IMG/VR virus record: IMGVR_UViG_3300047476_000811
Location: 1-28,262 of that record
From: a virus
Length of the DNA stretch: 28,262 nt
Strand: one strand, 5' to 3'
The notes under the pieces are model-generated. The model was not told where the DNA came from. It saw only the letters and a program-made list of their open reading frames with translations, and searched no databases. Within the stretch, counting starts at the first letter, position 1; every line of letters begins with the position of its first letter. The translations under genes were made by a program, and so were the position numbers. Below, piece after piece: positions 1,568-6,988 of this stretch.

Positions 1568-1785
1568 TTGGTCAGCTCCTTCTCAATGGCTTCAATTGTT
1601 GGGCAAGGATAAGGATGAGGCTGGCCGTCAAAAATTACGCACTCGCCGCACCACATAGGTTCAGCACCTCTTGGTTTGTGTAAGTTCATTATCACACTAA
1701 GAGCAAGCCAAGCCTTAAAAGCGTGCAACCCTATTTCCATTCCTTGTCGCAAAGTAATCTCTGCCATCAGCTCATCGTGGGTCAA
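1564..1785 (-). CDS. Small hypothetical protein
   Basis: About 73 aa if translation starts at the TTG at 1783-1785, which overlaps the upstream stop (TTGA) and sits seven bases after AGAGGAAG; an ATG at 1765-1767 is the alternative, giving 67 aa. The sequence has a hydrophobic helix-like segment (AFKAWLALSVIMNL) and a CGEC pair followed by a proline-rich stretch ending in a cysteine, which could hold a metal. It is coupled to the zinc/HTH gene downstream by a 4-base overlap. I do not recognise the family. Confidence 0.6.
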   Translation of the reverse strand: MTHDELMAEITLRQGMEIGLHAFKAWLALSVIMNLHKPRGAEPMWCGECVIFDGQPHPYPCPTIEAIEKELTK

Positions 1786-2129
1786 AACGGAACTTCCTCT
1801 CCCTGGTAGGTCTTGCTCTGACTTCTTCCCCAATAATCTTCAGGGGGTGTTGCTCCGAACTTGAATGTGGATGGGTCGCAGATATGTGATCCGAGAACTG
1901 GTTTGCCTGTGATGTGAATGTAAGCGCCCATTCTAGGCATCACCTCAAATGATTCGGCAGTTCTGTGGGTTGCGTAGGTTCGCCGTGTCTTGGTCAGTTT
2001 CGCCACAATCTCTTGCTCCAATGTCAGCGGCTCAACATCAAGGCGCACATTGAAACCGAAGCATCGGCCAACCCAAACATAATTCCCACAGGGCGTGCAG
2101 GTGATTGCTCGAAGGCTAGTTGAGGTCAT
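1782..2129 (-). CDS. Hypothetical protein next to candidate origin
   Basis: 115 aa from the ATG at 2127-2129; a TTG at 2136-2138 would add three residues. AGG of CACAGG lies nine bases upstream, immediately after a DnaA box, so the leader and the replication element overlap. The protein begins with a hydrophobic/aromatic part containing two cysteines (CTPCGNYVWVGRC) and later has a helical E/K-rich segment and the motif YIHITGKP. I recognise no family. It is the first gene read out of the candidate origin region. Confidence 0.65.
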   Translation of the reverse strand: MTSTSLRAITCTPCGNYVWVGRCFGFNVRLDVEPLTLEQEIVAKLTKTRRTYATHRTAESFEVMPRMGAYIHITGKPVLGSHICDPSTFKFGATPPEDYWGRSQSKTYQGEEVPF

Positions 2130-2140
2130 AGCCAGCAACC

Positions 2141-2149
2141 TGTGGATAA
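2141..2149 (-). repeat. DnaA box (perfect TTATCCACA)
   Basis: TTATCCACA on the minus strand, an exact match to the bacterial DnaA box consensus TTWTNCACA. It lies 11 bases upstream of the start of the gene ending at 1782. Confidence 0.65.
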
Positions 2150-2212
2150 CTTTTACTATCGTTCCTTGAACCGAGTGTGCATACCGTACCGTACCCTTTT
2201 CTAAAGAAAAGG

Positions 2213-2231
2213 GGTACGGTACGCATAATGC
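2213..2231 (+). repeat. 19-bp direct repeat, copy 1
   Basis: GGTACGGTACGCATAATGC, identical to 2280-2298 at a 67-base offset. The core GGTACG also occurs singly at 2269-2274 and inverted in the TACCG run at 2182-2195, as iterons do. Confidence 0.8.
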
Positions 2232-2252
2232 TCACGCTCAAAACTGCCTGGT

Positions 2253-2273
2253 GTACCTTTATGCTAAAGGTAC
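2253..2273. repeat. Perfect 9-bp inverted repeat, 3-base loop
   Basis: GTACCTTTA / TAAAGGTAC with loop TGC. No T tract follows on either strand, so it is unlikely to be a terminator; in context it may be a protein site or extruding hairpin of the candidate origin. Confidence 0.6.
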
Positions 2274-2279
2274 GCTTTA

Positions 2280-2298
2280 GGTACGGTACGCATAATGC
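2280..2298 (+). repeat. 19-bp direct repeat, copy 2
   Basis: Exact second copy of the 19-mer at 2213-2231. It lies between the 9-bp hairpin (2253-2273) and the plus-strand DnaA box. Confidence 0.8.
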
Positions 2299-2308
2299 GT
2301 GCAGAGAG

Positions 2309-2317
2309 TTATCCACA
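2309..2317 (+). repeat. DnaA box (perfect TTATCCACA)
   Basis: TTATCCACA on the plus strand, two bases beyond the primase stop codon. With the copy at 2141-2149 it forms an inverted pair whose outer ends are 177 bases apart and which brackets all repeats of the intergenic region. Confidence 0.65.
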
Positions 2318-2319
2318 GG

Positions 2320-4431
2320 CTATGCCCCACCAATCTGCGAAATGATGGCATCGAAAAGGTCAAATTCAGCTTTGCCAGCATCTGTCATATAGAGAATGAA
2401 GTTGGTTTCTGATCCGCGATTGTCAATCAGACCCTTCTTGAGCATCTCTTGGAGTCGAACGCCAATGGCATCCTTACCGCCCTTTACACCGTCAGCAACC
2501 GCCCTGCGAGAGCAGCCCGGGTTTGCGTGGATAAAGTCAGCCACATCCTTCAACTTCTTATGGGCAAGGCGTTCTTCATACTCTTCCTCATTTGTTGGCG
2601 GTTGCACCATATATTGAATCGCCGCCTTGGTTGAGTCCATAGTCAGAACGGCTGCCTCTTGAGTACGATCCGACTTGCGCCACATTCCAGCGTTGCGCCG
2701 AATGTCACCTGGTCGGTCTTTGGTCACTCGGATTGTCAGGCTTCCGACCCGCCCAGGCGATAGCACCTCGATTGGCTCGACTAGATAGGCAGCGCCATCA
2801 ATGGTCGCCAACTTAGCCTGCCCACCGATTGCGAAGCGGCCACGCGTTTCGGAGTTCTTGGTGATGTGGTCAATGAGGATCACGGCAGCACCTGACTTGA
2901 GCGATACCGTTCTTGGGAAGTTTCGCATCCAGCGGGTGATTGCATCGTTATCAACGGTTTCACCGCCGAACATAGTCAGAGATTCGGTCACACCGTCAAT
3001 GACAACCATTGTGGCACTGTTCGGCTCAAGGATGGCTTGCCAGTAAGGGTCAGATACCTCACGCACCCCTTCAGGGCGGATATAGGTGAAGTAGTGGAGC
3101 AAGTTAGCTCGACTCACCCCAAGAGCCTTGAGGCGCTTCACAATGTCTTGAGGATCAGATTCAAAGTCAATATAAATAACTTTTTTATCTGCCTTGAGAA
3201 GTTCAGCCGTTGCGATTTGTGCCACCCAGGATTTGCCCGACTCAGATTCACCATAAAAAGAGTGAACCTTTCCTGCATAAATCAGGTGTCTTCCATCGGT
3301 ACGCCCAAGGATATTTGCGCTGACCTCTTGGAAAAGTCCATCATAGTAAGGCGAGAGTTCAATTGGCTTCCAACTGGATTCTTCCTCAATTATCTCGCCA
3401 GTTTCAGGGTCATATTGAATTTCAGGCTTCTTGCCAACAACCAAAGAATCAGCAAGACCGATAGATTGCAAGCCCTGTGATCCGTAGCCAAGCGAGCGCA
3501 ATTGCTGACTTGCTAGCCTGAAATCATCGCGTGCGTGAAGGTGGGCATAGACCGCAAATTTGGAATAAGACTTGTTTGCCTCAAATGTGGTCGAGGTGGT
3601 GAAGACATAAAAGTTGTCATAATCGCCAAAGCCAGTTGAAGCTGAAATGCCTTCGTTCTTTCCTGGTCTGCGCCAAAATGTCACACCTTGCTTGTCGGTG
3701 AAGACTCGCTTCCATCCAGCGGGTTCAAGAATCTCAACCCACGAAACTTTGCTTGCATAGTCATCACCTGGTTGGCTCAAATCAAGTTCGGTCTTTGTGA
3801 CTTCATTGCGAATGGCTTCAGTATGTGGAACTTCATCAAATGTGCGCAAGATTCGGAAAATCTCTTCACGCTCTTGGGCAGTAATTGTTGGGATGGTTTC
3901 AACTGATCCTGAAGCCATTTCCCACGCCTTGCCGCTAGGGTGCGCGTTGCCCCCTGAAGGCGCAGTGATGCAAAACCCGCCCTCAGAGCGCGTTTCGATA
4001 AGGCATCCGCCATCTTCACCCGCTTGGGAAGCCAACTTGGTATTGCCTGGCAACTTGCCTTCAACTTTGTAAAGGAAGTGAATCCCGCCCGATGGTGTCA
4101 TTTCCATATAACCATTGACGAGCCGTTGCCAAATGTCGCCAAGTCCAGCCATTTCAATTGCAGAGCGAGCCACAAGATGAAGCCCCTTGGCAACTGCTCG
4201 ACCTTCAAATTCGAGCATCTCAAGGTTGCCTGAAACAATGCCAGTGATGACACCAAGCCCTTGGCAATTGGGATCATTAAACCAAGCCAACAATTCATCT
4301 GTGGTCGGCTTGCGTTCCTGATATTCCTTCCAAGCAATCCCGGGGCGCTTAGACCCATCGCTTGCAACAGGCACTGCCACAATTCCTTGCGTGGCAAATC
4401 TCAGTGCCGTTGCCAATACTTCGTTATTCAT
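2320..4431 (-). CDS. Bifunctional DNA primase-polymerase / RecA-like helicase
   Basis: 703 aa from the ATG at 4429-4431, which has a strong AGGGGAG site; an in-frame GTG at 4462-4464 is less likely. The N-terminal ~170 residues are an archaeo-eukaryotic-type prim-pol domain: LEMLEFEG supplies the acidic pair, TPSGGIHFLY (near 112-121) the small-glycine-histidine motif, and ETRSEGGFCITAPSG the distal motif. The C-terminal half is a RecA/DnaB-like ATPase with Walker A GESESGKS at about 394-401 and Walker B MVVIDG at about 475. It should open and prime DNA at the fork; no replicative polymerase gene is visible in the window. It overlaps the small gene upstream by 8 bases and ends against the candidate origin. 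The acidic pair is E-x-E where many relatives have D-x-D. Confidence 0.9.
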   Translation of the reverse strand: MNNEVLATALRFATQGIVAVPVASDGSKRPGIAWKEYQERKPTTDELLAWFNDPNCQGLGVITGIVSGNLEMLEFEGRAVAKGLHLVARSAIEMAGLGDIWQRLVNGYMEMTPSGGIHFLYKVEGKLPGNTKLASQAGEDGGCLIETRSEGGFCITAPSGGNAHPSGKAWEMASGSVETIPTITAQEREEIFRILRTFDEVPHTEAIRNEVTKTELDLSQPGDDYASKVSWVEILEPAGWKRVFTDKQGVTFWRRPGKNEGISASTGFGDYDNFYVFTTSTTFEANKSYSKFAVYAHLHARDDFRLASQQLRSLGYGSQGLQSIGLADSLVVGKKPEIQYDPETGEIIEEESSWKPIELSPYYDGLFQEVSANILGRTDGRHLIYAGKVHSFYGESESGKSWVAQIATAELLKADKKVIYIDFESDPQDIVKRLKALGVSRANLLHYFTYIRPEGVREVSDPYWQAILEPNSATMVVIDGVTESLTMFGGETVDNDAITRWMRNFPRTVSLKSGAAVILIDHITKNSETRGRFAIGGQAKLATIDGAAYLVEPIEVLSPGRVGSLTIRVTKDRPGDIRRNAGMWRKSDRTQEAAVLTMDSTKAAIQYMVQPPTNEEEYEERLAHKKLKDVADFIHANPGCSRRAVADGVKGGKDAIGVRLQEMLKKGLIDNRGSETNFILYMTDAGKAEFDLFDAIISQIGGA

Positions 4432-4606
4432 TCCGCTCCCCTTTAATAACAATCCATCCGTCACGCTCTAAGGCTAAGAGCGCTACTTTTGCAAGATGTG
4501 CTGGCGTATTGGGTAGCCATTCACCGTATGCATCCCAAAAACCAACCGCAATTGATTGTTCAGGTGTTTCACGCTTTTTCAATTGCTTCCAAGATTTCTG
4601 CTCCAA
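4424..4606 (-). CDS. Small hypothetical protein before primase
   Basis: Up to 60 aa. No ATG exists in the frame; a TTG at 4604-4606 or one at 4580-4582 (preceded by GGAAG and overlapping the upstream stop by 14 bases) could start it. The conserved-looking part is VGFWDAYGEWLPNTPAHLAKVALLALERDGW, which is helix-rich and mixed in charge. It is bridged by overlaps to the methyltransferase upstream and the primase downstream, consistent with translational coupling. Function unknown; start uncertain. Confidence 0.6.
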   Translation of the reverse strand: MEQKSWKQLKKRETPEQSIAVGFWDAYGEWLPNTPAHLAKVALLALERDGWIVIKGERNE

Positions 4607-5201
4607 GTGCGTATGGAATCATTGAGCGAGTCTTTGCGCCTTTAAGACCTTGAGTGCCAGTCTTTGATCCGCGTGGGGCTGCTTCGTGGCAACCCTGACC
4701 ATTCTTGCAAGGCTCTCGATGTGTCCAGCCAGGAACAACGCCCCAAAGGTCGGTTGGCTTCATTCGTGAATCGCCATAAGTGCAATATGTAATTGTTCGG
4801 CGTGGATAGCCTTCAACAACTGGCAACTTGCGCAGCATCCCTCTTGGGTTCTCCATAAGCCAACCCTTTTGTGGATTGAGTTCAGAAATCAGCTTCAAAG
4901 TATGCGCAACAAGTTCTTGGCTTGTCTTGGCAGCCTCTGTTCGTGGCATTGGATTCTTGCCACCACTAATCCAGTGATGCCCCATTGAAGCCACAGAGAA
5001 AGAAGTGCAAGGTGGTGAAGCCCATACAAAGTCAGGCTGGCCGTATCGAGCAATTAAATCCTGCGCGTTAAGATTGAACACATCTGCGTGTTCAGTTGCC
5101 TCAAATGAAGTGTCTAATTCAAATGAGATGACGGTATGCCCGGCATCCTTAAAGGCTTGCGTTGATGATCCAGTTCCAGCAAAGAAATCAAAAATTAACA
5201 T
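4569..5201 (-). CDS. C5-cytosine-type DNA methyltransferase
   Basis: 210 aa from the ATG at 5199-5201, which has GGGGGAACGAAGT before it and overlaps the upstream stop by 7 bases; an in-frame ATG at 5223-5225 would add eight residues. Motif I is DFFAGTGSS (5-13), binding S-adenosylmethionine; ASPPCTSFS (61-69) carries the PC of motif IV with nucleophile C65; MENPRG (116-121) replaces the usual ENV motif. The variable C-terminus has CKNGQGCHEAAPRG with possible metal ligands and no clear motif IX/X. This shortened DNA methylase type is common in actinophages and probably protects phage DNA from host restriction. The window has no cognate nuclease. Target unknown. Confidence 0.8.
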   Translation of the reverse strand: MLIFDFFAGTGSSTQAFKDAGHTVISFELDTSFEATEHADVFNLNAQDLIARYGQPDFVWASPPCTSFSVASMGHHWISGGKNPMPRTEAAKTSQELVAHTLKLISELNPQKGWLMENPRGMLRKLPVVEGYPRRTITYCTYGDSRMKPTDLWGVVPGWTHREPCKNGQGCHEAAPRGSKTGTQGLKGAKTRSMIPYALGAEILEAIEKA

Positions 5202-5731
5202 ACTTCGTTCCCCCATACATCCCATCCGTCTGTTGCATTTCTTGCAAACAGTTCAATTCGTGATTCATCCCCAATAAGTTCAACGATTTTATCTCTAATC
5301 AATTGAGGTTTCTGAGAATGTTTTGTCAAAGGCGCAATTGTTAGATTTGCAACCGAAGCTGAAATTCTCTTTGGCTTGCCCTTGACTGCCAACAGGCAAA
5401 TCTCAGGATTTCCTCTTGTCCAGCGACCTAAGCCAAAGAAAAAGCCATTGCCACTTTTGTTTTGCTTTACCCAAGTGAAAGCAACAGATTTGTAGGTAAA
5501 TCCCCAGGATTCAATGACTTTGAGCGCTTCAGGAAGCAATGGGTATGTTGCCCACATAAACAAAACGCAATCGTCTTCGGTAATATCTGAAATCGGCAAA
5601 GCGCAAATATCTTCCAATTTCATTGTTTCATAATGTGATTCCGCAGCACCTTGAGGTGGCGTTCGGTCTTGGTAACGCCAAGGTGGATCCGCATAAATTA
5701 CTTTGTATTTCTTATCTGGAAACTCAATCAT
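5195..5731 (-). CDS. MT-A70 family adenine-N6 DNA methyltransferase
   Basis: 178 aa. DPPWRY at 15-20 is the catalytic DPPW motif of MT-A70 enzymes, with VLFMWAT and the AFTWVKQNKSG strand that usually follow; the C-terminal KHSQKPQLIRDKIVELIG is the other family hallmark (KPxxL before the last helix). It should transfer a methyl group from S-adenosylmethionine to adenine N6 in phage DNA. The start ATG has GGGGGAATA directly upstream and overlaps the stop of the preceding gene by one base (TAATG). It stands between two cytosine methyltransferase genes, forming a modification cassette with no restriction partner seen. Confidence 0.9.
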   Translation of the reverse strand: MIEFPDKKYKVIYADPPWRYQDRTPPQGAAESHYETMKLEDICALPISDITEDDCVLFMWATYPLLPEALKVIESWGFTYKSVAFTWVKQNKSGNGFFFGLGRWTRGNPEICLLAVKGKPKRISASVANLTIAPLTKHSQKPQLIRDKIVELIGDESRIELFARNATDGWDVWGNEVC

Positions 5732-6258
5732 TATTCCCCCACAACATTGTTAATAATCCATTGAACTACTGGCACTGCAACTGCATTGCCCATTTGCTTA
5801 TATCGGTTTGAATCGGCTTGGTCGCCAGTCCAACCATCAGGGAAGCCCTGAAGCCTCTCACATTCAAGCGGTGTTAAACGCCGAACACGCACTGGCTCTG
5901 CAATAAAGATTTGAGCGTGGTGAGATTGAACGCTTGGTCTGTTAGCCTGCAAAGCCAATGCCGTATCTGTTTCGGTCGCACTAAAATTATTTGCTTTTGC
6001 ATCTTCTCTTATTGAATAAATTGCTGGCACATTGCCACCGCCCGTTCCCCATCGTTGAATCACTGTTTGCATTACTTCATCTTCATACACGCGCACATCA
6101 TTCACACGCGTTCCGTCAATAATCAACACCGTTGCCCTAGTTTCAGTGGCGTTATCAAATGCGTTCAATGTTGGTGTCACGCCCCCTTCAATCCAAGTTT
6201 CCCAATCTGTGTCATTTTGCGCCCTGCGAGATTTAATCCACGATGAGATCGGTGGCAT
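5731..6258 (-). CDS. C5-cytosine methyltransferase, C-terminal half (motifs IX-X)
   Basis: 175 aa in the frame that continues the gene at 6233-6988. It has the phage target-recognition region (ETWIEGGVTPTLNAFDN, then IIDGTRVNDVRVYED), motif IX as RRLTPLECERLQGFPDGW (126-143) and motif X as QMGNAVAVPV (155-164). Motifs I-VIII are absent here and present in the preceding ORF. The ATG at 6256-6258 lies inside that ORF, 26 bases before its end, with only a weak AAAGAG upstream. Either a two-subunit enzyme with overlapping genes as in M.AquI, a +1 frameshift product, or a sequence error. Family certain, expression mode open. Confidence 0.85.
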   Translation of the reverse strand: MPPISSWIKSRRAQNDTDWETWIEGGVTPTLNAFDNATETRATVLIIDGTRVNDVRVYEDEVMQTVIQRWGTGGGNVPAIYSIREDAKANNFSATETDTALALQANRPSVQSHHAQIFIAEPVRVRRLTPLECERLQGFPDGWTGDQADSNRYKQMGNAVAVPVVQWIINNVVGE

Positions 6259-6988
6259 CTTTATAGTCTCTTTGCTTCAGAGTCGAGGTTGTATCGTCTT
6301 CGGCGTAATCGCCAAAGCCTCTCATTCTGTTGAGCTTGCCAGTGTTTCCAGTGCCACCTGCAACTTTTCGGGCAAGGTCTTCTCTCTTCGATTTGCTCGC
6401 CTCAAGATACCCTGCGCGGCTTTCGCGGATAGAGAGTATTTCTTCAGGTGATCGCCCTGAGTTTCCAAGACATCCGACAATGAAGACTCTTTTACGGCGT
6501 TGGGGAACTCCGAAGTATTGAGCATCAAGCACCCGCCATCCCACGCGATACCCGCGCTCGACCAACGCTTCAATGACAACGGCCATATCTCTTCCTTGAT
6601 TTGAGGAAAGAAGACCAGGCACATTTTCGAGGATAACCGTTTGTGATCCTGTTTCGTCAAGGATTCGGCATATTTCCCAAAATAAGCCACTCCGTTTTCC
6701 TGCCAATCCTGCTCGCTTACCAGCAACGGACAAATCTTGGCAAGGAAATCCGCCTGTGATGATTCCAGTTGAAGGTTCAAATCCTGCTGCTCTAAGTTGC
6801 TCACCTGTAACCCCCGTTACATCGTCAAAAATGGTTGAATTTGGAAAATGCTTTTTCAAAACTGATTGCGCCTTCTTATCAATCTCAACTGAGGCAACAA
6901 CCTTCACGCCTGCCCGTTCTAGTGCTAAATCAAAGCCACCAACGCCAGCAAATAAAGAAACGGCAGTTCTCACGATTTGCCCGCCCAT
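6233..6988 (-). CDS. C5-cytosine methyltransferase, N-terminal half (motifs I-VIII)
   Basis: 251 aa. Motif I FAGVGGFDLAL (13-23), motif IV GGFPCQDLS with nucleophile C83, motif VI ENVPG (121-125), motif VIII QRRKRVF (163-169). The frame stops (TAA at 6233-6235) right after LKQRDYKDATDLIVD, where related phage proteins run on into the recognition domain, and the missing motifs IX and X follow in the +1 frame. AAGGGTGA lies a few bases before the ATG. The start overlaps the FmdB-type zinc ribbon gene by 19 bases. Product: m5C methylation of phage DNA if both halves assemble. Confidence 0.88.
   Translation of the reverse strand: MGGQIVRTAVSLFAGVGGFDLALERAGVKVVASVEIDKKAQSVLKKHFPNSTIFDDVTGVTGEQLRAAGFEPSTGIITGGFPCQDLSVAGKRAGLAGKRSGLFWEICRILDETGSQTVILENVPGLLSSNQGRDMAVVIEALVERGYRVGWRVLDAQYFGVPQRRKRVFIVGCLGNSGRSPEEILSIRESRAGYLEASKSKREDLARKVAGGTGNTGKLNRMRGFGDYAEDDTTSTLKQRDYKDATDLIVD

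Follow-up and report, generated by a model that had tools for sequence, protein, structure and literature searches.

The window analysed in this study is the complete IMG/VR virus record IMGVR_UViG_3300047476_000811, a stretch of 28,262 bp. Because a WhiB gene is encoded in the window, an actinobacterial host is likely. A short intergenic element separates the gene of the proposed initiator from a downstream gene on the same strand, which encodes a small CxxC (zinc-ribbon-like) protein (Table 1). The Prim-Pol domain of the 714-aa initiator candidate was recognised with an E value of 2.7e-13 (PF09250), and the best PDB fold match of the modelled protein is the Prim-Pol domain of pRN1 (1rni, TMt 0.64). 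The ATPase half has an AAA_25/RecA-KaiC fold and is not an SF3 helicase domain; Prim-Pol and AAA_25 are found in place of a TOPRIM primase. At the C-terminus, a winged helix (about aa 626-700) was predicted in two AlphaFold models, in which confidence was good for this domain and moderate for the whole protein (pTM 0.41). The predicted domain gave MarR-like fold matches and also matched MarR phrog_1687.

Table 1. Coordinates of the genes and sequence features at the locus (window positions)
Feature	Position	Strand	Remarks
Small CxxC (zinc-ribbon-like) protein gene, downstream of the element	1782..2129	-	alternative TTG start at 2138
Intergenic element: two hairpins, iterons, two DnaA boxes	2130..2319		190-bp gap, Prim-Pol/AAA_25 gene to zinc-ribbon-like gene
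Exact DnaA box TTATCCACA	2141..2149	-	inside inverted repeat arm 2139-2151
Hairpin 2, CGTACCGTACC-CTTTTCTAAAGAAAAGG-GGTACGGTACG	2185..2223		two iterons per arm, AT-rich apex
Eight GTACC/GGTAC iterons	2186..2289		at 2186, 2191, 2213, 2218, 2253, 2269, 2280, 2285
19-bp direct repeat GGTACGGTACGCATAATGC, copy 1	2213..2231	+	
Conserved core TGAGCGTGA between the hairpins	2232..2240	-	reads TCACGCTCA on the + strand
Hairpin 1, GTACCTTTATGCTAAAGGTAC	2253..2273		21 nt
19-bp direct repeat GGTACGGTACGCATAATGC, copy 2	2280..2298	+	
Exact DnaA box TTATCCACA	2309..2317	+	inside inverted repeat arm 2307-2319
Proposed initiator gene: Prim-Pol (PF09250), RecA-like AAA_25 (PF13481), C-terminal winged helix	2320..4464	-	714 aa
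C-terminal winged helix coding sequence, proposed iteron reader	2332..2559	-	aa 636-711

All the parts that the original prediction had named in the element are present: exact DnaA boxes in opposite orientation, a pair of 19-bp direct repeats, a TACCG tandem (part of ACCGTACCGTACC) and two inverted repeats. Both boxes sit in a perfect 13-bp inverted repeat (CCTGTGGATAACT / AGTTATCCACAGG), and they are the only exact copies of the box in the 28,262 bp. Two exact boxes occurred in 5 of 300 dinucleotide shuffles of the window, and a pair within 190 bp in none of the 300. The 6-mer CGTACC has seven copies on both strands of the 190 bp, compared with a maximum of four in 500 local shuffles. The density of structure, which had been called unique in the window, is nearly so; one other stretch at 20.2-20.5 kb, inside a gene coding for Ala/Glu runs, is equally repetitive by the 6-mer measure.

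DNA methyltransferase genes (C5, MT-A70, C5) lie in a row at 4569-6988, just upstream of the primase gene, and some of them have distant DNA matches in cultured phages. Many related contigs share an assembly break 2.33-2.51 kb downstream of the primase match, the corresponding distance in the window being 2.32 kb; other related contigs continue 10 kb past the match (3' flanks of L005-L078). The preferred break about 2.3-2.5 kb past the primase gene may be a physical genome end.

Conservation of the element in related viral contigs

Searching viral contigs with the primase gave 80 loci, to which further ones were added by an alignment search. In 85 IMG/VR loci, including the window and the near-identical L003, the sequence reached far enough for the element to be assessed, and every one of the 85 has a two-hairpin, iteron-rich element 3' of the homologous gene. 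Counted from the stop codon, the shared layout begins with two or three iterons and hairpin 1; a TGAGCGTGA-like core and two more iterons lead to hairpin 2, and inverted iterons follow. The core has the same placement in most relatives; in six loci (L068-L073) its orientation is reversed (TCACGCTCA) with respect to the other parts of the element. In two loci (L013 and L031) another gene is inserted between the primase gene and the element, and the element is kept; the start of the inserted gene reads HIVMFSGGIGSWGAAK. By comparison of these sequences, it is the architecture that is conserved, not the iteron word. A lack of conservation beside homologous primase genes had been named in the original prediction as the finding that would count against an origin, and the comparison came out in its favor. 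Since the element accompanies the homologous gene in 85 of 85 loci, a replication origin is its best reading. The sign change of cumulative GC skew that had been expected at the site was seen neither in the window nor in ten long relative contigs; this measure is uninformative here, the skew being mostly positive on the primase-gene strand.

In the window, 13-bp terminal inverted repeats bound a unit of 181 bp, as would be expected if the unit were a mobile repeat of the MITE or REP type; a packaging or partition site may be considered together with it. However, these bounding repeats are the DnaA boxes, and other relatives do not keep them at the ends of the element. Moreover, each locus has a single array, always near the same gene, and no second array of the same word was found within the fetched sequence of the loci. 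This explanation therefore has almost no probability.

DnaA boxes around the element

Exact DnaA boxes are concentrated around the element in the relatives. The region from -400 to +500 holds 78 boxes in 65 kb, while more distant sequence holds 8 in 750 kb, an enrichment of 113-fold. The near boxes are spread over ten distinct 12-bp positions, the highest number reached by any 9-mer. Most of them are in coding DNA, at varying places and often single. Coding constraint was considered as a source of these boxes. The zinc-ribbon-like gene contains 29 boxes versus 0.34 under synonymous shuffling, and the primase end contains 35 versus 7.3; boxes as coding accidents can thus be rejected for the former and largely for the latter, with the reservation that the loci are related. 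By locus (n = 75), boxes occur on both sides of the element in 28, on one side in 21 and on neither in 26, so that 49 of the 75 have at least one. In the 26 box-free loci, boxes with one mismatch showed no clear excess (0.43 vs 0.29 per kb).

These counts bear on the original proposal of a host-DnaA-dependent origin, that is, an oriC-like origin in which the initiator would act primarily at the boxes, with an accessory role for the hairpins. The likeness to oriC-type origins lies in the TTATCCACA boxes within a short region, here two in opposite orientation and nowhere else in the window, and in the enrichment of boxes near the element of the relatives at ten positions, far above synonymous-codon expectation. 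The boxes of the phage group, however, are few and movable, and they are missing in a third of the relatives, which nevertheless carry the full iteron/hairpin element; the iterons are the universal part. Because exact boxes are absent from 26 of 75 loci, a general requirement for DnaA is ruled out, and an origin run by host DnaA is unlikely. The enrichment of boxes supports the original proposal only in part, and "dependent" was too strong a word. From its distribution, DnaA looks like a lineage-specific, facultative helper. The main initiator is more likely to be phage-encoded, because the universal iteron/hairpin array co-varies with the winged helix of the primase-helicase.

Iteron words, hairpin 2 and the winged helix

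Seven iteron words were found in the phage group: GTACC, GTTCC, GTGCC, GTGGT, CGTTGTG, GTTTCCC, and ATCCTGC. In most cases one word is used per element, by direct and inverted copies alike, and few elements are mixed (L012, L054). Judged from the aligned loci, the iteron changes in concert within an element. The loci L141 and L142 combine a divergent primase (53% identity) with the word ATCCTGC, and their zinc-ribbon-like gene shares 86-90% identity with the genes that accompany other word types.

Hairpin 2 is maintained by paired changes. Fourteen variants of the inner stem were aligned, all from loci with A, T, or G words; hairpin 2 of the window differs in length and was left out. All positions are paired, with five two-sided changes and no one-sided change. 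Watson-Crick pairs in hairpin 2 number 658 over 62 distinct elements, against one G-T and three A-C. Because the pairs are almost only Watson-Crick, a DNA dyad or cruciform is favored over an RNA structure. Strong hairpins between co-directional genes would also suit an attenuator, a processing site or a terminator acting at the RNA level. Nevertheless, pairs of the G-U type are almost absent from hairpin 2, the units repeat in both orientations, no terminator-like site was found at the hairpins, and no Rfam match was found for the element. An RNA-level role thus has a very slight probability.

The iteron word was compared with different parts of the neighboring proteins. A tree of primase aa 1-605 requires at least 14 changes of the word. 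When trees were built from 75-aa blocks, the number of changes was 7 with the winged helix, 10 with the zinc-ribbon-like protein, and 11-14 with any other part of the primase. The eight columns that agree best with the difference between A and T words (GTACC vs GTTCC loci) are located at aa 638-712, within the final 80 residues of the primase. In pairs of relatives, the winged helix and the element diverge together inside more similar flanks. For example, L043 and L042 share 94% identity in the AAA part, 82% in the winged helix, 79% in the element, and 87% in the zinc-ribbon-like gene; the corresponding values for L021 and L018 are 87, 67, 73, and 89%. L046 and L052, whose words differ, are 67% identical in the winged helix, 61% in the element, and 96% in the zinc-ribbon-like gene. 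The zinc-ribbon-like protein was also considered as the iteron reader, and this pair rules it out, being 96% alike there and yet unlike in word. At single residues, the direction of coevolution is consistent in the columns shown and not significant singly; independent A/T switches with good support number five, too few for any per-residue test to reach 0.05. The link between winged helix and word is strong but not conclusive, since the relatives are not independent samples and the closeness of the winged helix to the element alone yields some linkage. The word and the winged helix seem to change together, such that each replicon would have its own matched lock and key, and the winged helix and the iteron array seem to be exchanged as a cassette.

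We consider it very probable that the element is a replication origin read at its GTACC iterons by the winged helix of the phage primase-helicase, with DnaA helping. According to this model, the winged helix would bind the iterons just 3' of its own gene. The primase-helicase would then assemble there, open the AT-rich hairpin apex, and prime synthesis at the element. In the lineage of the window, host DnaA at the flanking boxes would probably aid opening or recruitment.

Known origins and the wider actinobacterial family

Origins of this kind are already known from pRN1 (a stem-loop origin), pWTY27 (an iteron origin), and P4 alpha. In the Sulfolobus plasmid pRN1, a stem-loop 3' of the Prim-Pol initiator gene is the origin and is needed, and its authors noted similar stem-loops in phages (PMC4234260). 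The phage locus resembles pRN1 in having a Prim-Pol initiator with a C-terminal winged helix (here a predicted one) and a stem-loop directly 3' of the initiator gene, conserved in structure and varying in sequence. It differs in that pRN1 has an SF3 helicase and, according to its authors, no iteron structure (PMC4234260), whereas the phage has a RecA-like AAA_25 ATPase, obvious iterons, and DnaA boxes. Replication of pWTY27 requires 300 bp of repeat-bearing sequence adjoining repA, in which the repeats are both direct and inverted and on which RepA leaves a footprint (PMC3583192). Prim-Pol modules have also been described in actinomycete integrative elements, namely RepPP and SLP1 SCO4617/4618 (PMC3218068). 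The systems share a Prim-Pol and a RepA-type protein, which are split in the Saccharopolyspora locus L083 and fused in the phage; in pWTY27, 7-8 bp direct and inverted repeats and a long inverted repeat lie adjacent to repA, apparently on its 3' side, and the descriptions at hand make no mention of DnaA boxes. In P4 alpha, priming, unwinding, and the binding of origin repeats through a C-terminal winged helix are united in a single protein (cited in PMC4234260). The same combination of functions is proposed for the phage protein, although P4 alpha has a TOPRIM primase (PMC4234260) and the phage protein has Prim-Pol and a RecA-like ATPase. Relative to the open-licence literature, three features are new compared with these known kin: word and winged helix diversify as a matched pair, DnaA boxes are present, and the helicase is RecA-like.

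The element could instead be a transcription operator, through which the primase-helicase or another phage repressor controls the downstream early genes while replication starts elsewhere. Autoregulation is common among iteron-binding initiators, and the array is surrounded by genes that run in one direction. However, a search of 1900-2600 found no sigma-70-like promoter, and DnaA boxes cluster at the element. An array 3' of the initiator gene is, furthermore, the layout of the demonstrated origin in pRN1 and, apparently, in pWTY27 (PMC4234260, PMC3583192). An operator with replication starting elsewhere is thus highly unlikely.

The origin architecture appears to extend beyond the phage group. 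Saccharopolyspora oryzae (L083) has the split form, with separate Prim-Pol and ATPase genes, and a GGCCGCA array with a hairpin lies at the 3' end of the ATPase gene. Searches of 299 genomes of the order of this species and 395 of its class revealed further loci, and the related ATPases encoded in other actinobacterial genomes are homologues of the window's ATPase. Chromosomal RepA-like loci number 26 (L083 and L172-L196). In 20 of them, one 7-mer is repeated at least five times close to the 3' end of the ATPase gene, forming an array; elsewhere in those 20 loci, one 7-mer reaches at most three to four copies. The words are nearly all different (CTTGTCC, CCCGTCC, CTCGTCC, ACTGCGG, CGGTTCC, AATCACG, and others), and CTCGCCC occurs twice. 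Arrays were not found in the other six RepA-like loci. Three of these (L184, L185, and L187) have a C-terminus of a different kind; the remaining three (L192, L195, and L196) are unexplained, the C-terminus of L192 and L195 resembling that of array-bearing loci. Two small plasmids, Streptomyces p-XQ-29-C and Kineococcus pKRAD02, likewise have an array where their RepA-like ATPase gene ends, and an array is also present on a Streptomyces Prim-Pol plasmid found by a repeat search. Short iterons in both orientations together with a long inverted repeat are common to the phage, the array-bearing actinobacterial chromosomal loci, and the plasmids, as in pWTY27. A fixed motif at the hairpin apex across the actinobacterial loci was sought and not supported; a TA step was seen in 13 of 22 apices, for which the automatic choice of hairpin is unreliable.

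We tentatively propose, as an idea somewhat short of probable, that one initiator design (Prim-Pol, RecA-like ATPase, winged helix) and one origin architecture, with a private iteron word for nearly every replicon, are shared across actinobacterial phages, plasmids, and chromosomal elements, the cassette of winged helix and array being a diversifying replication address. If this is true, the pairing of winged helix and array would keep co-resident replicons off each other's origin.

The phage element itself predicts the origins of Prim-Pol-type phages, and where actinobacterial chromosomal elements or plasmids encode a RepA-like ATPase, the rule of a 3' array points to candidate origins. The matched series of winged helices and words, with seven words in the phage group and more in the actinobacterial elements, offers a codebook for DNA recognition by winged helices and for building compatible replicons. 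The reason for the diversification of origin addresses becomes a directly testable question.

Two further phages were also inspected. Arthrobacter phage Eileen, which has only the Prim-Pol half in common, showed no array directly 3' of the gene. In Microbacterium phage Hendrix (L150, 4374-4740), 33-bp direct repeats and a TTGTCCACAGG box lie 3' of the primase/polymerase gene; Hendrix is a cultured phage, and these features are possibly an origin of this type.
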